From Candidatus Bathyarchaeota archaeon (GTDB lineage Archaea; Thermoproteota; Bathyarchaeia; TCS64), in NCBI GenBank assembly GCA_016934355.1, contig JAFGTA010000200.1, forward strand, positions 1 to 13,543: a DNA stretch of 13,543 bases, given 5' to 3'. The translations under genes and the position numbers were made by a program. Positions 2,587 to 12,746 of this stretch are shown here, in pieces (positions within the stretch are counted from its first letter, which is position 1; each line of letters opens with the position of its first letter). The notes below the pieces were generated by a model that saw nothing but the letters and a program-made list of their open reading frames with translations, was not told the origin of the DNA and made no database searches.

Positions 2587-3174
2587 CTATAAGGTGGGTG
2601 CCGCTATCACGTACCTCATGATGAGGCCCAGGCTAGGGTCGAGAGCCGCCTCGCCGAAGCCTAGTCTCTCGTAGAACTCCTTGAGCCTCCGCCCTTTTTC
2701 GTCGGTCTCCTCCGTATACAGGGTGATGGACCTGTACGAGAGCCCTATACAGTAGTGGATGAGGAGGCCGAGAAGCACCTTGCCCAAGCCCTTTCCCTCG
2801 ACCCTAGTCACGAGCTCGTCCAGGAAGAAGCCCTCGGGGTCTGCTTCGTAGTCGTAGCCGTAGAGGAACGCTGTGGGCTCCCCGCCCACCGATAGCACCA
2901 TGCAGACAAAGTCCCTCTTCTTGGTCTTCTCCAGGAACTCGTCGTGGGTGTACCAGAGTTCCTGCCTGAACTTCTCGTGGTCTATGGCTTCCAGCTTGGA
3001 CAGCAGCTCGTCGTCGATGCTGTAGTGGACAAAGATTCTGCAGGGGCTCCCCAGCCTCTCGGACGCCTTGGCCTCGGCCTGCCTCAGCGCCCTGTTGAAG
3101 AGTTCCGAGGGTTCGTCGAGTGGCGCTCCTTCACTGTAAGCCGTATCGCCTGATCGCGGCCTCAATGACCTCAC
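2587..3174 (-). CDS. GNAT-family N-acetyltransferase
   Basis: A 195-residue protein. Residues about 47-190 form a GNAT domain: the acetyl-CoA pyrophosphate loop is in VTRVEGKGLGKVLLGLL (about 121-137, matching the R/Q-x-x-G-x-G/A pattern), preceded by the beta strand GFFLDELVT and followed by the C-terminal YERLGFGE motif. It transfers an acyl group, usually acetyl, to an amine; the acceptor is unknown. The predicted GTG start at 3174 lies inside the ATP-grasp gene and overlaps its end by 44 bases; a TTG at 3165 after GAGGT is an alternative. It is the last gene of a minus-strand operon with the ATP-grasp and PP-loop genes, so its substrate may be the amino acid or dipeptide they make. The first 45 residues are not part of the recognisable domain. 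Confidence 0.82.
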   Translation of the reverse strand: MRSLRPRSGDTAYSEGAPLDEPSELFNRALRQAEAKASERLGSPCRIFVHYSIDDELLSKLEAIDHEKFRQELWYTHDEFLEKTKKRDFVCMVLSVGGEPTAFLYGYDYEADPEGFFLDELVTRVEGKGLGKVLLGLLIHYCIGLSYRSITLYTEETDEKGRRLKEFYERLGFGEAALDPSLGLIMRYVIAAPTL

Positions 3175-4141
3175 GCACCATGTCGTCGAACTTCTTGCCG
3201 AGGGCGTACCACATCATGGGGTAGAAGCTGAGCTCATCCCTCACGACGTCGTAGTCGATGCCGGGCAGGGTGTTGACCTCCAGGAAGTAGAGCTCGCCGT
3301 CGCCGTCGATCCTGTAGTCCATCCTCGCCCAGTCGAGGCAGTTTAACGCCCTGTAGCTCGCCTTGGCGTGGTCCTCGACTCTCTTCCTGAGCCCGTCGTC
3401 GATGTCGGCTGGGCACTTGTAGTTGCTGCTGTCGTCGAAGACGCTCTTGGCCTTCTGGCCGAGGACGCGACCCAGCTCGGGCGGGAAGCCGCTGAAGTCG
3501 ATCTCCAGTATGGGGAGCACGGTAGGCTCCTCGTCGCCGTGGTAGTTGCCTACGAGGCCGACGCTGAACTCGCGGCCGTCTATGAACCTCTCCGCGAGGA
3601 TGGGCTGCCTATAGGTCTCCAGCATCTCAGCTAGCTTCGCCCTGAGGGCCTTCTCGTCGTTAACGACGTTGTCCCAGTTGATGCCTATGCTGCTGCCCTC
3701 GTGGCTGGGCTTCAGTATGAGCGGGTACCTGAGGCCCCTGCGGAGCTTGTCATTGACCTTGCTGAGCACCTGGAAAGGCGCGGTCTTGAGGCCGTGGTAC
3801 TCCAGGATCATTTTGGTGGTCGGCTTGTCCAGCCCGATGGCGTTGGCCATCACACCGCTGCCCACGTACGGGATGCCCAGCATCTCGCAGAAGGCGGGCA
3901 CATGGCTCTCCCTGCTCTCGCCTCTGACGCCCTCGGCCCTGTTGAACACTATGTCGGGCCTCAGCTTCTTCAGGGTCTCGTAGCAGGTCTCATCTGCCTC
4001 TATCTGGAGGAACTCCCAGCCGGCCTTCTCGATGCCGTGCTTGACGTGTTCGATGGTCTCCTCGGGCTCGTACTCTATGTTGAACTCGTCGTCCGCGTGC
4101 CTTGTGTTGCAGCAGAACGCTACTCGAAGCCTACGGGACAT
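3131..4141 (-). CDS. D-alanine-D-alanine ligase-like ATP-grasp enzyme
   Basis: A 336-residue ATP-grasp protein with the order of elements seen in Ddl. It has an N-terminal domain with Asn67-Glu70 (FNRAEGVRGESRES, corresponding to the substrate-binding glutamate loop), the ATP-binding lysine in LILKPSHEGSSIG (Lys144, EGSS 148-151), ERFIDGREFSVGL (184-196), a SNYKCPADI segment like the lid region of Ddl, and the magnesium-binding ARMDYRID and LEVNTLPG (Asp275, Glu288, Asn290). Catalytic residues look intact. It should activate a carboxylate as acyl phosphate and join it to an amine. Most archaea have no peptidoglycan, so the product is probably not a murein D-Ala-D-Ala; a specialised dipeptide or amino-acid ligase is more likely, which is inference. 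The ATG overlaps the end of the PP-loop gene by 11 bases, showing a tightly coupled operon. Confidence 0.87.
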   Translation of the reverse strand: MSRRLRVAFCCNTRHADDEFNIEYEPEETIEHVKHGIEKAGWEFLQIEADETCYETLKKLRPDIVFNRAEGVRGESRESHVPAFCEMLGIPYVGSGVMANAIGLDKPTTKMILEYHGLKTAPFQVLSKVNDKLRRGLRYPLILKPSHEGSSIGINWDNVVNDEKALRAKLAEMLETYRQPILAERFIDGREFSVGLVGNYHGDEEPTVLPILEIDFSGFPPELGRVLGQKAKSVFDDSSNYKCPADIDDGLRKRVEDHAKASYRALNCLDWARMDYRIDGDGELYFLEVNTLPGIDYDVVRDELSFYPMMWYALGKKFDDMVREVIEAAIRRYGLQ

Positions 4142-5489
4142 CGCTTAGGGTCTCCCTGTAGATGCTCTCCACCTTGCTTCGGATGCGCTTGGGGAGTGTG
4201 ATTGGATCGTGGATGTCGAAGAACGTCTTGTACAGCTCGTCCTCTCTTCCTTTCGCCTCGTCGAGGAACCGTTTCTCGAACTCCTCGACCAGTGGGCTCC
4301 TGTCGCCGTTTCTCCACGCGAGGTAGAACGCGAAGAGCTGTTCGTCTCGGCCTCTGCCTGTGAGGGCGTAGGTGTTGACGTCGCTTCCGCCGAAGAGGCT
4401 GAAGTATTCGCGGCAGTCATCTGTGAGCATGTTACGGTCCAGCCCCACCGTGCTCGGGTCGTAGCCCGACGCCTTGATGAGCAGGTACATCTTGCTGCAG
4501 ACGCTGCAGTCCATGCACCAGCGGGTGTCCCTCCCGGCCTCGGTCTCCACGAAGCAGCTCATATGGTACTTGGCGACGTCTGGGTACCTCTTGTAGAGGG
4601 TGTAGACCACGGCGATGTCGTTCAGGGGCTCGATGACGCTCATGGTGCGTACGCCTCCGCCGCTGAGCTGACGGGTGATCGTGTCGATCTGGGTGGTCCA
4701 TGTGTGGCACTGGTCGTACGCCGGGTAGCATACGTATCCTTCTCTGTCGTGGTAGTACTCACCGCAGCTCTGCTCGTTGCCGAAGAGGATGTACTTGCTC
4801 TGGAACTTGTGGGCGATGGGCAGTATCATCATGGCGTACTGGGTGGACTGGAGACCCCATCCAAGCTCCGTCTTGCCGACTCCCAGCCTCATGCCGTCCC
4901 GGAGGTTTCCCATGCTGTGCTCGATCTTCTGAAGCTCGACCCCGAACTCCTTCATGAACGCCTTGGCCAGCTTGTCCTTATGCTTCTCCTCGTAGAGGAG
5001 CACCGGCTCGACGATGTAAGCCGCCTGCGGGTTCAAGCCTATCTCGCGGCACACCGCCCACGTCAGAAGGCTGTCCTTGCCGAAGCTGAGACTCACCACG
5101 CTGGAATCCTCGCGGGTCTCGTCCCTGAAGGTGGGCAGCTTAATCTCGTTGTCCTTGAACCTCATCTTCAGGTTCATGAACTCCTTGATGAGCTCCGACG
5201 TGCTCGTTCCGTCCACGTCGGCGCAGCTCGGGAGATCCATGACGAGGTTCTGGAAGAAGTGGGTCTGGAAGAACGGGGGCGAAGTGTTGTATATTATCCC
5301 GTTTTTCCGGAATGTCAGTGGGAGGTGTACGGTCTCGGCGTATACAAGATTGTCGAATAGGATGTCCTTGGCCTCCTGCGGGTACGCCTGCCATATCTCG
5401 TCAGGATAGTTCATGACGTACCTAGAGCCCCGGAACAGAATCTCAAAGCCGTGGGCCGTCTGCCTCGCGTTAATGCTTAGACTATTCAC
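4131..5489 (-). CDS. MurL-like PP-loop ATP-dependent enzyme
   Basis: A 452-residue protein with a PP-loop signature SFGKDS at residues 135-140, the mark of the ATP pyrophosphatase fold that adenylates its substrate. Downstream are FGNEQSCGEYYHDREGY (236-252) and a three-cysteine cluster WCMDCSVC (Cys325, Cys328, Cys331) that could hold a metal or Fe-S site. Length, PP-loop position, the FGNE segment and the WC..C..C segment resemble, from memory, MurL, the bacterial enzyme that uses ATP to epimerise the terminal L-glutamate of UDP-MurNAc-L-Ala-L-Glu. The assignment is by motif recall, not alignment, and tRNA-modifying or amide-forming PP-loop enzymes remain possible. It starts with GTG and heads the operon with the Ddl-like ligase and the acetyltransferase, which favours a role in amino-acid or peptide chemistry. 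It is divergent from the PLP enzyme. Confidence 0.7.
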   Translation of the reverse strand: MNSLSINARQTAHGFEILFRGSRYVMNYPDEIWQAYPQEAKDILFDNLVYAETVHLPLTFRKNGIIYNTSPPFFQTHFFQNLVMDLPSCADVDGTSTSELIKEFMNLKMRFKDNEIKLPTFRDETREDSSVVSLSFGKDSLLTWAVCREIGLNPQAAYIVEPVLLYEEKHKDKLAKAFMKEFGVELQKIEHSMGNLRDGMRLGVGKTELGWGLQSTQYAMMILPIAHKFQSKYILFGNEQSCGEYYHDREGYVCYPAYDQCHTWTTQIDTITRQLSGGGVRTMSVIEPLNDIAVVYTLYKRYPDVAKYHMSCFVETEAGRDTRWCMDCSVCSKMYLLIKASGYDPSTVGLDRNMLTDDCREYFSLFGGSDVNTYALTGRGRDEQLFAFYLAWRNGDRSPLVEEFEKRFLDEAKGREDELYKTFFDIHDPITLPKRIRSKVESIYRETLSDVP

Positions 5490-5524
5490 GCGTTCCGCTA
5501 CCTACTTATTCTGGATCGGTGACC

Positions 5525-5532
5525 TTAATTAA
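5525..5532. promoter_or_regulatory. Symmetric A/T box shared by divergent genes
   Basis: TTAATTAA lies in the 63-base gap between the PP-loop operon (minus) and the PLP enzyme (plus). Its centre is about 25 bases before the ATG at 5553, fitting a leaderless PLP transcript, and about 39 bases before the GTG at 5489, which would leave a leader of about 13 bases on the operon. A second A/T stretch at 5505-5512 could serve the operon instead. The short shared gap suggests the four genes are expressed together. Confidence 0.45.
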
Positions 5533-5552
5533 AAGTAATATTTCTTCCTACA

Positions 5553-6539
5553 ATGAAGAGGCCTGAAAAACTAGGCATGTTCACAGAAAAGTTTAAAGAA
5601 GCAGGGATCGGGGAGACCGTTTTTACACGTTCAAGAAACCTCGAGAAATTGCTAAATTTCAGTCAATTTTGGTTTAAGTTCGAGGGCGGGAATCCCACGG
5701 GGACCATGAAGGACAGGGCGAGCTACGCGACCCTCAGCCTCGCCGCCGAGAAGGGGTTCAAGGAGATAGCCGTCGCGAGCTGCGGCAACTTCGGCGCCAG
5801 CGTCGTCCACCTGAGCAGGCTCTTCTCCCTTAAGCCACACGTCTACATACCTGAGAGCTTCGTCGCTCCGCGGGTAGCCGAGATGGAGAGGCAGGGAGGT
5901 ATCATCCACAGGGCGCCGGGCACCTACGAAGACCTCGTAGACCTCAGCGCCGAGGACGCCGAGGCAGGGGGATGGTATAACGGTAACCCGGGGACGCCGG
6001 AGAACACGCGTGTGAGCCTTGAGGCGTACGCCACCATCGCCTACGAGGTGACCGAGAGTCTGGGGGACGCGCCCTACGCCGTGTCTGTGTCAGTCAGCAA
6101 CGGCACATGCTTCTCGGGTATACTCCACGGCTTCAAGACGCTGAAGGACAAGGGCGTGATCGAGTCCTCACCACACATGGTGGCCGCCAGCACCGAGGGC
6201 GGGAACCCCATCGTCCAGAGCTTCAACGAGGGTAGGAAGAGGATTAGGGACCTCGACCCGTCAAGCATCGTCGAGACCGAGGCCAACGAGCCCATAGTCA
6301 ACTGGAGGAGCCTTGACGGGCAGGAGGCTCTTGATGGCCTCTGGGCGAGCGACGGGTACGCGTTGAACGTCTCAGACGAGGCTCTTGAAAGATACGCGAG
6401 GTACCTGGAGCACGAGGAGGGCATCGTCGTCCTCCCCGCGTCGGCTGCCGCCTTGGTCGCTATGGAGAGATACGCGAAGTCTGTGGACGCCTCGGGCGGT
6501 AAGGCGTATGTGGCGGTTCTTACGAGTCGCCGCCACTAG
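5553..6539 (+). CDS. Threonine synthase-like fold-type II PLP enzyme
   Basis: A 328-residue member of the tryptophan synthase beta / threonine synthase superfamily. The PLP Schiff-base lysine is Lys53 in GGNPTGTMKDRASY; the substrate carboxylate loop is ASCGNFGAS (75-83); the PLP phosphate loop is SVSNGTCFSGILHG (180-193); and the end VLTSRRH supplies a serine or threonine near the pyridine nitrogen. This class performs beta- or gamma-replacement or elimination on amino acids: threonine synthase, cysteate synthase, cysteine synthase, diaminopropionate synthase. It is shorter than typical threonine synthases and carries changes in each loop, so I would not call it thrC. Its divergent pairing with a PP-loop and an ATP-grasp enzyme points to making a special amino acid. 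The first 128 bases are about 38% G+C, well below the rest of the gene. Confidence 0.85.
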   Translation: MKRPEKLGMFTEKFKEAGIGETVFTRSRNLEKLLNFSQFWFKFEGGNPTGTMKDRASYATLSLAAEKGFKEIAVASCGNFGASVVHLSRLFSLKPHVYIPESFVAPRVAEMERQGGIIHRAPGTYEDLVDLSAEDAEAGGWYNGNPGTPENTRVSLEAYATIAYEVTESLGDAPYAVSVSVSNGTCFSGILHGFKTLKDKGVIESSPHMVAASTEGGNPIVQSFNEGRKRIRDLDPSSIVETEANEPIVNWRSLDGQEALDGLWASDGYALNVSDEALERYARYLEHEEGIVVLPASAAALVAMERYAKSVDASGGKAYVAVLTSRRH

Positions 6540-6545
6540 TGGATA

Positions 6546-6556
6546 GGATTTAATCC
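6546..6556 (+). promoter_or_regulatory. TATA-like box of the helicase gene
   Basis: GGATTTAATCC, itself a near-perfect inverted repeat, is centred 27 bases before the ATG at 6578. This fits a separate, leaderless transcript for the helicase even though the gap to the preceding gene is only 38 bases. Confidence 0.45.
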
Positions 6557-6577
6557 TGCGCCTCCCCAAGAAACCTC

Positions 6578-9427
6578 ATGCAGCCCAGCGTCTTCGAGTT
6601 GCTTGACCCCCTAGTACGGTCGGGTCTTGAGGAGCTGGGCATCACTGAGCCGACGCCTCCTCAGATGAAGGTCATTCCGCCGATCCTCGACGGCGAGAAC
6701 GTGCTACTCATCGCGCCCACCGCCAGCGGCAAGACCGAGGCCGCGCTTCTACCTATCTTCGACATGTACCTCAAGGAAAAGCCGGAGAAGGGGATAGGGA
6801 TCATCTACATCACGCCGCTCCGGGCGCTGAATAGGGACATCGAGAAGAGGATGATGTTCTGGGCCGACCACCTCGGCATAGACGTGCAGGTGAGGCACGG
6901 CGACACCAGCCAGAAGCAGAGGAGGCGGCAGTCCACCAAGCCGCCGCAGATGCTCATCACGACGCCCGAGACCCTGCAGGCAATCCTGCCCACCAAGTCT
7001 ATGCGGAAGCACCTCGCCACGGTGAGGTGGATCATAGTGGACGAGATACACGACCTCGCCGCCAGCAAACGCGGGGCCCAGCTCACAGTGGGTATGGAGA
7101 GGCTCGACATGGCTTCAAGGCACAGGGTGCAGAGGATCGGGCTCAGCGCGACGGTCGGCAACCCCGAGACGGTCGCCGGCTTCCTAGGCGGCCCCCACCC
7201 GGTGACCACCGTAGAGGTGGAGGTGGACAAGGACTACGTCTACAACGTCGAGTTCCCTGAACCGGTGGACGCTGACTACGACCTCGCCGACGAGATAGAC
7301 ACGTCACCCAAGGCGGCTTCAAGACTCAACAGGATAAGACACCTCGTCAGGGACCATAACGGCACACTAATCTTCGTGCAGGGCAGGGGCCAGGCCGAGG
7401 CGCTGGGCTACAAGCTGAAGACGCTGGACAAGGGGATCGAGGTGCACCACGGCAGCCTGAGCCGGGAGCAGAGGCACCGGGTCGAGGACGAGTTCAAGCA
7501 GGGGGAGCTCAAGGCTATAGTCTGCACAAGCACACTGCAGCTAGGTATCGACATCGGCGAGGTCGACCTGTGCATCCAGTACCTGAGCCCCCGGCAGGTA
7601 TCGGCCCTCATCCAGAGGGTGGGCCGCTCAGGACATAGATTAAGCCGCCTAAGCAGAGGCGTCACGATACCGGCGTACGGTGAGGACGCGCTTGAGAGCC
7701 TGGTGACCAGCGAGATGGCGCGCCGTAAGAAGCTTGAGCCGACAATAGTCCACGTGGGGGCTCTTGATGTACTCACCCACCAGATAGCCGGGCTGACCAT
7801 GAGCCACGAGGAAGGCATCACCCTCAGCCAGATGCACGAGGTGATCACGAGGGCGTACCCGTACAGAGATTACAGCCTAGGGGAGCTGGAGGAGCACGCC
7901 GTGTTCCTTGAGAAGATAGGACTGGTCGTGAAGGAGGGAGATTTGTTGAAAGGTCGCGGAAAGACGAGGAGATACTACTACGAGAACCTTGGGATGATAA
8001 ACGACGAGCGACGGTACCCGTTCATAAACGCCATCACCGACGAGATGGTGGGCACCGTAGGAGACGAGTTCTGGAGCCTACGCGCACGCGTCGGCCTCAA
8101 CGTCATCCTCCGAGGCAGGGTCTGGAGGATACTCCAGATCGACGAGGAGCGCGGCGTCCTCCACGCCCTGCCCAGCACAGACCCCCTCGGGGCGCTGCCG
8201 GGCTGGGACGGAGAGCTCATACCTGTATCGAGAGACGTCGCCGAGGAGGGGGGAAGGCTGCGCGGAGAGATTCTATCAGCCAGCCAGGGCGGCGGCCTAG
8301 ACACGCTAGCCGAGTCCATGGAGGCTGACAGCAACAGTCTTACTGAGGTCGCCCGGGAGGCCGAGGTCCACATCAAGTCCGGGGTTCCGCTGCCGAGCCC
8401 CGAGAACCTAGTGTTTGAGGTCTATGATAGGTACATGGTCATCCACAGCACCCACGGCGAGAACTTCAACAGGACCCTCGGCGCCATACTGGACGCTGCG
8501 CTGAGCGAGATGGAGCTCATATACGCTTGGTGGAACGACCCGTACCGCATCCTCATAGAAGCGCCCAACAGGCTCAACGAGGACGAGGTGGAGCGGGTGG
8601 AGAAGCTGATCACGGGGCTCACCGAGGAGCGAGCCGAGAAGCTACTCATGGAGTTCATGGAGGCCCGTTTTCCCTTCGGCTACAAGATGAAGTTCATCGC
8701 CGAGCGGTTCGGGGTGCTGCCCCGCGGCAAGATAATGGGCCCCGACCGCGTCGAGAACCTGTACTACCGGTTCAAGGACACGCCCATCTACAAGGAGACT
8801 CTCAGGGAGGCGTACCAGGAGAAGCTAGACCTCCCCGGCGTCAAGGAGATGATCCGTTCGATGACGGAGGGGAAGGTAACCATCGCAACCAAGATGGTCG
8901 CCGAGCCCAGCATTCTGGCTAGGCATATACTGGAGAAGTACGCAGATGTCGAGGAGCTCATGGCCACCGACGCCACCATCACGGACCAGCTCCAGTACAT
9001 GAAGCAGAGCATCGAGGCGCGGAGCGTCAACCTCGCCTGCGTCAACTGTGGCGAGTGGCACACAAGGATCAGGATCAGGGAGATGAGCGACCACCCCCAG
9101 TGCGACAACTGCGGCAGCGGCCTACTCGCGATGATGAGGCGCCACCAGAGCCCCGAGCACTTCCAGGGCCTCCTCAAGAGGTGGAAGGAGGGTGAGGAGC
9201 TCTTCGGCGACGACATGGACCAGCTCGTCCACGGCAGGAAGACCGCGGACATGGTGCTCAGCTACGGCAGGCAGGCGGTGGAGGCGTTGATGGTGTACGG
9301 CGTCGGCCCCGTCACATCGTACCAGGTGCTGAGCCGTATGCACCGCAGCGACGAGGAGTTCTACAAGGACCTCCTCAAGGCCAAGATACAGTACATGAAG
9401 ACCCGGCAGTACTGGGACAACAAGTAG
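6578..9427 (+). CDS. lhr: Lhr-type superfamily 2 ATP-dependent helicase
   Basis: A 949-residue SF2 helicase. Motifs in order: Q-like motif TPPQ (26-29), Walker A APTASGKT (46-53), Ia TPLRALNRD, TTPETL (Ib), Walker B DEIH (155-158), III SATV (190-193), IV LIFVQGR, V TSTLQLGIDIG, and VI QRVGRSGHR (346-354). After the two RecA domains comes a long Lhr-core region (winged helix and following domains, about 360-800). Lhr enzymes translocate 3' to 5' on DNA and unwind DNA or RNA-DNA hybrids, and are linked to repair and, in archaea, RNA metabolism. Near the C-terminus is a four-cysteine zinc ribbon, Cys821/Cys824 and Cys842/Cys845, followed by a helical end with a helix-hairpin-helix-like VEALMVYGVGPVTSYQVL stretch. 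The gene appears intact, and all helicase motifs are present. A TATA-like box about 27 bases upstream suggests its own promoter. Confidence 0.92.
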   Translation: MQPSVFELLDPLVRSGLEELGITEPTPPQMKVIPPILDGENVLLIAPTASGKTEAALLPIFDMYLKEKPEKGIGIIYITPLRALNRDIEKRMMFWADHLGIDVQVRHGDTSQKQRRRQSTKPPQMLITTPETLQAILPTKSMRKHLATVRWIIVDEIHDLAASKRGAQLTVGMERLDMASRHRVQRIGLSATVGNPETVAGFLGGPHPVTTVEVEVDKDYVYNVEFPEPVDADYDLADEIDTSPKAASRLNRIRHLVRDHNGTLIFVQGRGQAEALGYKLKTLDKGIEVHHGSLSREQRHRVEDEFKQGELKAIVCTSTLQLGIDIGEVDLCIQYLSPRQVSALIQRVGRSGHRLSRLSRGVTIPAYGEDALESLVTSEMARRKKLEPTIVHVGALDVLTHQIAGLTMSHEEGITLSQMHEVITRAYPYRDYSLGELEEHAVFLEKIGLVVKEGDLLKGRGKTRRYYYENLGMINDERRYPFINAITDEMVGTVGDEFWSLRARVGLNVILRGRVWRILQIDEERGVLHALPSTDPLGALPGWDGELIPVSRDVAEEGGRLRGEILSASQGGGLDTLAESMEADSNSLTEVAREAEVHIKSGVPLPSPENLVFEVYDRYMVIHSTHGENFNRTLGAILDAALSEMELIYAWWNDPYRILIEAPNRLNEDEVERVEKLITGLTEERAEKLLMEFMEARFPFGYKMKFIAERFGVLPRGKIMGPDRVENLYYRFKDTPIYKETLREAYQEKLDLPGVKEMIRSMTEGKVTIATKMVAEPSILARHILEKYADVEELMATDATITDQLQYMKQSIEARSVNLACVNCGEWHTRIRIREMSDHPQCDNCGSGLLAMMRRHQSPEHFQGLLKRWKEGEELFGDDMDQLVHGRKTADMVLSYGRQAVEALMVYGVGPVTSYQVLSRMHRSDEEFYKDLLKAKIQYMKTRQYWDNK

Positions 9428-9464: not shown

Positions 9465-10568
9465 ATGACGACGCCCAGAGAACAGGGACGGGCGAGGGGC
9501 CGCAAGGAGACCCCCGGGATAAAGCACATACTAGGCGAGGTGGAGAAAGCCGCCGGCTTCTTCAACCAGAGCCTAGATGACTTCCTGAACGTGGATAAGA
9601 AGACCCTCAAACACATCCCCGAGCGCTACATCGAGGAGTGCGAAGGCATAGCGGAAGGTGCAGGCATAACAGAGGAGCTGGCGATGGGGATCAGCTTCGG
9701 CAAGGGACCGGGCAACCTCTTCAGGGAGGGGTGCACCGCCTTCGCGGTGCCGGCGCAGTGCTCCGCCGACGGCGCACCCCTGCTAATGAAGAACCGTGAC
9801 CTAGGCTACAGGCGGATGCACCCGCAGGTGCTGGCCTACAGCAGGCTGGACGGGTACAACGAGTTCATGGGGATCACCACGGCGGGTAACGCCTACTGGT
9901 ACCAGGGAGTCAACGAGAAGGGGCTGGTCGCCTACAACACGGCCACCCTGTGCGGCAAGTATGAGGAGGGCACGCCCGTAAACATACTGGTGCGTAGACT
10001 CCTAGAGGAGTGCAACACAGTGGATGAGGCCCTCAAGCTCATCGAGGAAAACAAGTTGGCTGCGTGCAGCAACCTCTTCCTGGGAGACCGCGAGAAGACG
10101 GTCATAGCCGAGCTCAAGAACGGATTCCCCGTCCACGTTGATGACCTCGATAAGGCGGACGCCCGCGCTAACCACTATGTGTACCACGATAACCCTCCCC
10201 TCATCGACAAGGACGTCATCCTCCACAGGCAGTACACCCTCCACCGCTACCAGCGGGCCAAGGAGCTGCTGAATACCGTTGAGAAGGTTTCAGTGGACGA
10301 CCTCATAAGGTTCGGCAGGGACCACGCGAACGGGCCGGGCAGCTACAGCGTGTGCCGCCACAACTCGTACATCGGCAGCGAGTTGGAAAAGCTCCTGAGC
10401 AGCAGCACCCTGAGCAGCCAGATATTCGAGATAGGGGACAAAGTCGAGACCTGGGTCTCCTTGGGGCGGCCTTGCCAGACCGAGTTCGTTCACCACGTCT
10501 GGGGAGACGAGATAGTTCCAGACATGGCGTCGGGCGAGATGTGGATAAGAAACCTTTCCCAGAGCTAG
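9465..10568 (+). CDS. Peptidase C45 / penicillin acyltransferase-like Ntn hydrolase
   Basis: A 367-residue member of the acyl-CoA:6-aminopenicillanate acyltransferase family (peptidase C45). The key evidence is Cys90 in REGCTAFAVPAQ, followed by GAPLLMKNRDL; in this family the precursor cleaves itself just before this cysteine, which then becomes the N-terminal nucleophile. The 89 residues before it would be the shorter subunit. Further family landmarks are MGITTAGNAYWYQGVNEKGL, NLFLGDREKTVIAEL, an asparagine in ARANHYVYHD that fits the usual NH segment, and a C-terminal WVSLGRPCQTEF. Members acylate amines or hydrolyse amides; in archaea their substrates are mostly unknown. No signal peptide is visible, so it acts in the cytoplasm. 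The amide chemistry would fit a link to the amino-acid ligase cluster upstream, but it is separated by the helicase. It is convergent with the AhpD-like gene, with 7 bases between them. Confidence 0.85.
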   Translation: MTTPREQGRARGRKETPGIKHILGEVEKAAGFFNQSLDDFLNVDKKTLKHIPERYIEECEGIAEGAGITEELAMGISFGKGPGNLFREGCTAFAVPAQCSADGAPLLMKNRDLGYRRMHPQVLAYSRLDGYNEFMGITTAGNAYWYQGVNEKGLVAYNTATLCGKYEEGTPVNILVRRLLEECNTVDEALKLIEENKLAACSNLFLGDREKTVIAELKNGFPVHVDDLDKADARANHYVYHDNPPLIDKDVILHRQYTLHRYQRAKELLNTVEKVSVDDLIRFGRDHANGPGSYSVCRHNSYIGSELEKLLSSSTLSSQIFEIGDKVETWVSLGRPCQTEFVHHVWGDEIVPDMASGEMWIRNLSQS

Positions 10569-12131: not shown

Positions 12132-12746
12132 CTAAGTCAACTCGTGGCGCACCACGGCGCCCCTCGGTGACGCCTCGGCGAAGATGATCGCCTGGAACCT
12201 CTGTATCTCAGTGCCTTCAAGCAGCCACGAGTCAGGTGGCAGACCCGCCTTGTAGCAGCACTGGGCGAGGAACTCCTCGGAGTCCCAGCCCCAGTCCACG
12301 GCTACCTGAGGCAGCAGGAGCCCCCTACGGTACCCCCTGCCGATGATCAACCCGTCTCGCCCCACTATGATCTCACCCGGAACGTCACCCGGTTTTACTA
12401 TCTCCAAGGTCTCCGGAGGCGTCAGCACGCTCACCTCGACGACGATCCCATCCATCTCTTCTTTCTTGACGGGTGGGAACCTTGGGTCCTCGAAGGCGGC
12501 GTTCAGCGCCGACTCCTTGACCGCGGTGAGCAGGTCCTTCACGGGATAGGGGTAGCCGATGCATCCTCTGAGCCTGTTTTCTCCGCCTTCGTGCCTGTTC
12601 AGCGTGACGAAGACGCCGCACTCTGTCCTGGTGACCTCTGGCGCGTCGCCGGTGTCAGGTTCGTCAGCGAGCCCTAGACGCGACTCTATCGCCCCTCTGG
12701 CGACACGTACTAGGTACTCTCCTTCTCCTTGGGTGAGGTCGAATAT
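12132..12746 (-). CDS. AMMECR1 domain protein with a non-standard start codon
   Basis: The frame encodes an AMMECR1-family protein of about 204 residues, the usual archaeal length. It begins (I/M)FDLTQGEGEYLVRVARGAIES, then CGVFVTLNR, the hallmark LRGCIGYPYP (from residue 59), AAFEDPRFPPVKKEEMD, VEVSVLTPPE, GRDGLIIGRG and VAVDWGWDSEEFLAQCCYKAGLP. The frame is open up to a TAG at 12762-12764. Between that stop and the conserved helix there is no ATG, GTG or TTG: the first is a GTG at 12542, which would delete 68 conserved residues including LRGCIG. The ATA at 12746 aligns with the normal initiator methionine and follows AAGGGG by 8 bases. Either ATA is the start, or the base was ATG in the organism. 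The molecular role of AMMECR1 is unsettled; it is conserved in archaea and eukaryotes. It heads a unit with the glycosyltransferase. Confidence 0.85.
   Translation of the reverse strand: MFDLTQGEGEYLVRVARGAIESRLGLADEPDTGDAPEVTRTECGVFVTLNRHEGGENRLRGCIGYPYPVKDLLTAVKESALNAAFEDPRFPPVKKEEMDGIVVEVSVLTPPETLEIVKPGDVPGEIIVGRDGLIIGRGYRRGLLLPQVAVDWGWDSEEFLAQCCYKAGLPPDSWLLEGTEIQRFQAIIFAEASPRGAVVRHELT

Follow-up and report, generated by a model that had tools for sequence, protein, structure and literature searches.

Within the sections of PMC8788868 and PMC5808125 on which we draw, the only ATP-driven peptide epimerase named is MurL, an enzyme of bacterial cell-wall synthesis. Those sections describe MurL as acting on a peptidyl residue once ligation is done and as unidirectional, from L to D, and they give adenylation of the carboxylate as their authors' hypothesis (PMC8788868, PMC5808125). 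The MurD2/MurL system, found in Xanthomonas and others, pairs a ligase gene with an ATP-using MurL-family enzyme of PP-loop type, and its proposed order is ligation, adenylation and then epimerisation of the new terminal residue; the archaeal locus described here has a comparable pairing, and the order that we propose for it is similar. In peptide chemistry, activated N-acyl residues epimerise through oxazolone-type intermediates. The DgcN D-glutamate pathway (NF041892) joins N-acylation to a change of configuration, as a sister operon described below may do, and its racemase is a protein of the enolase superfamily. The NAGGN osmolyte system comprises a GNAT/ATP-grasp protein, an asparagine-synthase-like enzyme and a peptidase, and its product is N-acetylglutaminylglutamine amide. 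Clusters for D-cycloserine combine a fold-type II PLP enzyme with an ATP-grasp ligase and, to our knowledge, hold neither a MurL-like enzyme nor a GNAT. In the open-licence literature, we recognised no paper describing the module presented here.

The window, a stretch of 13,543 nucleotides from contig JAFGTA010000200.1 of a Candidatus Bathyarchaeota archaeon, carries four closely packed genes in the following arrangement (evidence in brackets).

2587-3174, minus strand: GNAT-family N-acetyltransferase, 195 aa (Pfam Acetyltransf_1, 29.9 bits; gene neighbourhoods)
3131-4141, minus strand: Ddl-like ATP-grasp ligase, 336 aa, predicted amino-acid/peptide ligase (Pfam Dala_Dala_lig_C; NCBIfam; residues)
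4131-5489, minus strand: MurL-like PP-loop enzyme, 452 aa, predicted carboxylate-adenylating epimerase (NCBIfam MurL; invariant columns; hhalign)
5490-5552, no strand: divergent intergenic region, 63 bases, containing TTAATTAA (5525-5532); putative bidirectional promoter (sequence)
5553-6539, plus strand: PRK06381-group PLP enzyme of fold type II, 328 aa, annotation 'threonine synthase' (NF004996; association with MurL-like genes; tree)

An earlier sequence-only reading of this DNA had described two overlaps and a PLP gene diverging across 63 bases, and the open reading frame coordinates bear this out: the PP-loop and ATP-grasp genes share 11 bases (4131-4141) and the ATP-grasp and GNAT genes share 44 (3131-3174). 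The GNAT gene starts with GTG at 3174. No other ATG, GTG or TTG occurs among its first 80 codons apart from a TTG three codons downstream, so the second overlap is either 44 or 35 bases. The enzyme classes were likewise correctly called, three of them by Pfam (Dala_Dala_lig_C, Acetyltransf_1 and PALP) and the PP-loop protein by a weak match to the NCBIfam MurL profile. The symmetric A/T box noted in the intergenic region is indeed a palindrome, but no conserved motif was found when it was compared with relatives: eight other divergent gaps are A/T-rich with differing sequences. Elsewhere in the window (12132-12542), a TIGR00296/AMMECR1-like gene covers only positions 69-198 of a 200-position profile, and its beginning seems to lie in another frame, possibly because of a frameshift. 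The nearest contig found (L001) belongs to a Bathyarchaeota metagenome-assembled genome whose PP-loop protein is 80% identical to that of the window; its gene (6001-7356) contains one in-frame TAG, which may be a recoded codon, a sequencing error or a sign of decay.

When 256 genomes of the class Bathyarchaeia were searched with a PP-loop family profile, 26 matched: 15 with full window-type proteins, one with a piece at a contig edge (G435), nine with distant relatives and one (G536) with a match of 19.3 bits that was left out of the counts, giving a window-type set of 16 genomes (15 plus G435). The ligase gene adjoins the PP-loop gene in all 16, an intact GNAT is next to the ligase (11 genomes) or fused with it (three), and in 15 the PLP gene flanks the block, divergently in nine, upstream in the same direction in four and convergently beyond the GNAT in two. 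Some genomes have displaced or incomplete parts: G440 has its PLP gene about 100 kb from the block and only a GNAT remnant with a stop, G001 has no GNAT adjoining the block but a split match on another contig, and in G575 the PLP gene is interrupted by a contig edge. Because of these conserved neighbourhoods, the arrangement is not chance. The proposal that the four genes form a set, for which a neighbourhood search had been named as the check, thus holds in other genomes, and their conservation as one archaeal module is well supported.

Part of this linkage is inherited synteny with the neighbourhood of an Lhr-like helicase, which lies near the block in 10 of the 16 genomes. Could the four then be housekeeping genes that have simply stayed together, encoding an additional threonine synthase, a ligase of general function and an acetyltransferase? 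The conservation of the helicase and other neighbours in those 10 genomes speaks for such an account, and the PLP enzyme does pass a family model named threonine synthase (NF004996). However, the PLP gene stays with the block in G556, G560, G491 and G435, and the set holds together at loci L064 (in G556), L065, L068 and L070, with no helicase in the stretches read. The set also persists in three arrangements, so synteny with the helicase as the lone cause was rejected. Together with the fusion of ligase and GNAT, the recurrence of the PLP and MurL-like genes as partners in the sister operon, and a separate thrC gene in 15 of the 16 genomes, this makes the housekeeping explanation very improbable and largely refuted.

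One further genome, G571, keeps the PLP gene and cleanly lacks the PP-loop, ligase and GNAT genes over about 40 bases. The empty site (L162, about 9480-9520) lies between a C_GCAxxG gene and the PLP gene, and tblastn found no remnants there. The PLP gene can therefore be kept without the other three, and this genome and G440, with its distant PLP gene, indicate that the PLP enzyme may also serve a separate function.

The PLP enzyme matches Pfam PALP (174.1 bits) and exceeds the cut-off of NF004996 (threonine synthase PRK06381; 339.8 against 266 bits), while it falls under that of the thrC model TIGR00260 (85.0 against 167.1 bits), as compared with 45.5-104.6 bits for the cluster PLP enzymes listed. 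A canonical thrC over the cut-off is present elsewhere in the genome in all window-type genomes except G574, where the match was partial and reached 78.8 bits; these counts come from the 16 related genomes, so statements about the organism rest on its relatives rather than on the genome of the window itself. A role as the only threonine synthase, which the sequence-only reading had named as a result that would speak against a pathway, is thus ruled out in 15 of the 16 relatives, and the ligase, the other possible housekeeping enzyme, lies below the listed Ddl cut-offs and lacks the aligned Ddl residues. In a tree of 44 proteins, the 40 PRK06381 proteins stood apart from four canonical ThrC proteins (100/100), and a branch with support of 89/64, present in 90% of 200 bootstrap trees, set the window-type enzymes apart on one side, adjoining the Bathyarchaeia enzymes of the sister operon (99/93). 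The group shares with threonine synthase its fold, the catalytic lysine motif and the family name, but all 40 members have [S/T]CGN[F/Y]G in place of the STGNT of the solved threonine synthases 2zsj and 2d1f. We predict that the enzyme acts on an amino acid used by the module. In G024 and G048, PRK06381-type PLP genes (L181 and L182) lie near proteins that, judged by eye, resemble MurQ-type SIS proteins and sugar kinases, with neither a DUF1611 nor a MurL-like partner on the stretches read.

The PP-loop protein has no Pfam match at E<=0.01. Its match to the NCBIfam MurL model (NF041275) is weak and collinear, aligning residues 108-441 with profile positions 118-444 of 447; at 25.6 bits it is far below the equivalog cut-off of 700, and the nearly full-length homology places the protein in the wider MurL superfamily. 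Neither the PP-loop residues nor four cysteines (C312, C325, C328 and C331) vary across the 63 members of the family alignment, and the corresponding motif and cysteines are likewise invariant in 18 rows of the sister family. The two families are homologous along their length (hhalign probability 99.4%, E 5e-22, 413 columns); the sister proteins tested had no NCBIfam match at E<=0.001, MurL included. For PF26299, which is precomputed for two distant PP-loop relatives, no match was obtained. Searches of solved structures yielded no convincing relative. By analogy with MurL, we predict that the protein is a carboxylate-adenylating epimerase. The system differs from MurD2/MurL in its Ddl-like ligase, with no Mur ligase (MurD2) next door, in its PLP enzyme and GNAT, in its archaeal host and in a MurL score so far under the cut-off. 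Additional PP-loop paralogues occur in the class: one in G556 (L064:6844-8286) is 34% identical and converges on the PLP gene, and others sit elsewhere, including one that adjoins a gene for myo-inositol-1-phosphate synthase (L078).

Asparagine-synthase-like and TtuA-like PP-loop enzymes activate a carboxylate for amide formation or sulfur insertion, and with such chemistry the same module might yield a capped dipeptide that is amidated or sulfur-bearing, similar in outline to NAGGN. The four invariant cysteines would be in keeping with a site for a metal or an iron-sulfur cluster, the top profile match among solved structures was TtuA (E 0.011, covering the PP-loop part only), the window protein also matches WbuX weakly (18.8 bits), and GNAT and ATP-grasp domains do occur fused. 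Against this, the MurL profile matched 53 of the 63 family members (E<=0.01) over nearly their full length, compared with two for WbuX and one for NadE, and neither Pfam nor NCBIfam detected a glutaminase domain in the PP-loop protein. We consider an amide- or sulfur-forming enzyme somewhat less likely, and retain a MurL-type epimerase as the preferred reading.

The ligase matches Pfam Dala_Dala_lig_C with 119.4 bits. Its best NCBIfam score, 191.5 bits, falls short of the 243 required by NF002378, and it passed no cut-off among the matches listed (25 of 39 matched families). All 17 ligases compared have T or S after a conserved K and a loop reading PG[I/M/L]D; the same positions in the solved Ddl 4zqi read AKY and PGMT, residues that we take to have functional roles in Ddl. 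An identity as D-Ala-D-Ala ligase was rejected on these scores and residues. The non-Ddl residues lead us to infer a second substrate other than D-alanine, and the enzyme is predicted to be an amino-acid or peptide ligase.

Separate in the window, the ligase and GNAT are fused in three genomes (G566, G349 and G565) and in three database proteins; the fusion at L067 has 542 aa, with the ATP-grasp domain preceding the GNAT domain. The union of GNAT and ATP-grasp functions in one protein (in three of 16 relatives here), alongside a PP-loop enzyme, is reminiscent of NAGGN. NAGGN differs in that its two domains stand in the other order, its PP-loop enzyme is of the asparagine-synthase type and not MurL-like, and a peptidase takes the place of the PLP gene; in the window itself the two genes are unfused. 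As for the parallel with D-cycloserine drawn by the earlier reading, nothing was found that ties the set specifically to that chemistry. At four of 16 loci (L072, L074, L075 and L082), the GNAT gene is followed on the same strand by a gene for a GGACT/AIG2-like (gamma-glutamylamine cyclotransferase-like) protein, which in L082, the copy on which Pfam was run, overlaps the GNAT gene by 4 bases.

A second arrangement of related genes places the module in a wider context. At 17 of 20 loci read, the distant MurL-like PP-loop gene belongs to a sister operon in the order PLP (PRK06381), DUF1611 (DgcN-like) and PP-loop. In two of the exceptions (G243 and G281) the PLP and DUF1611 genes are together elsewhere in the genome; in the third (G237) neither is on the short contig and no PLP enzyme passed the cut-off. 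G190 and G207 have the PLP-DUF1611 pair with only fragmentary PP-loop matches. Database records assign sister PP-loop proteins to Infirmifilum uzonense, Thermofilum pendens and several Thermococcus species, and PP-loop relatives to Aigarchaeota, Thorarchaeota and Hodarchaeota. Locus L147 (G073:C1) holds a complete sister operon, and the assignment of a sister operon to Infirmifilum uzonense is putative.

The PLP and MurL-like genes are strongly associated. PRK06381 passed its cut-off in 25 of the 256 Bathyarchaeia genomes (the 15 with full window-type proteins, the nine with distant PP-loop proteins and G571), and 24 of these 25 also carry a MurL-like PP-loop gene. In a sample of 398 genomes from the phylum, each was found in 22 genomes and both in 18, with a MurL-like gene and no PLP enzyme over the cut-off in G033, G057 and G237. 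Fisher tests gave p values of 2e-31 for the class and 8e-24 for the phylum, in samples that overlap and with kinship ignored. The remaining components divide between the two types: DUF1611 was found in all 12 sister-type genomes searched and in none of 17 with window-type genes (the 16 and G571), whereas the ligase was found in three of three window-type genomes and neither in five sister-type genomes nor in G571. Within this set of genomes, the two modules are mutually exclusive. We infer that the common core is a PLP enzyme, a MurL-like PP-loop enzyme and an enzyme that acylates an amino group, with the acylating part being the one exchanged.

The DUF1611 protein also bears on the direction of the chemistry. 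In a salvage route, D-amino acids or peptides with D residues would be taken up, acylated, epimerised to L and degraded, and the PLP enzyme would act as a lyase. The sister DUF1611 proteins match DgcN (NF041892) with 167-171 bits, and the GGACT/AIG2-like gene at four loci would suit such a route. Yet the DgcN scores are far under the equivalog cut-off of 480, a ligase builds bonds rather than breaking them, and MurL is reported, in the sections cited, to run only from L to D (PMC8788868, PMC5808125). Salvage is consequently an improbable reading, and we return to the biosynthetic one.

Our observations are consistent with a model in which an amino acid is built, joined and capped before its carboxylate is activated and epimerised, as in MurD2/MurL, and we put the probability of this reading at roughly 0.4. 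The PLP enzyme would make or adjust an amino acid X, which is the least certain step; the Ddl-like enzyme, to judge from its family, would couple an amino acid to X; and the GNAT would acetylate the free amino group of the resulting dipeptide. Following the example of MurL, the PP-loop enzyme would then use ATP to adenylate the acylated residue at its terminal carboxylate. Once activated, that residue would epimerise, perhaps via an oxazolone-type intermediate that requires the N-acyl group, and hydrolysis would fix the D form. The probable product of the set is a small capped peptide, in which one amino acid may have been turned into its mirror image.

The sequence-only reading had the PP-loop enzyme act on a free amino acid ahead of the ligase. 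The conserved set supports its grouping of the four genes, but ligation or N-acylation first is likelier than the order it proposed, because MurL is described as acting after ligation (PMC8788868, PMC5808125) and because in the sister operon the partner of the MurL-like enzyme is homologous to the N-acetyltransferase DgcN. The sister operon would be a simpler version of the module, in which the DgcN-like protein N-acylates in place of ligase and GNAT. A mechanism that acylates first would account for the varied company of MurL-like enzymes: a ligase in MurD2/MurL, a ligase and a GNAT in the window, and a DgcN-like protein in the sister operon.

Overall, we tentatively suggest that these loci belong to an archaeal module family in which ATP-driven epimerisation of the MurL type yields D-amino acids that are N-acylated or bound in a peptide, with two interchangeable front ends (DgcN-like, or Ddl-like ligase plus GNAT), a misnamed PRK06381 enzyme as supplier of the amino acid and a novel metabolite as product. 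If the linked archaeal family is real, it would extend MurL chemistry to the archaea, point to novel metabolites and call into question the database name 'threonine synthase' on archaeal proteins; as the sister genes are found in cultured heat-loving archaea, the question is testable there.
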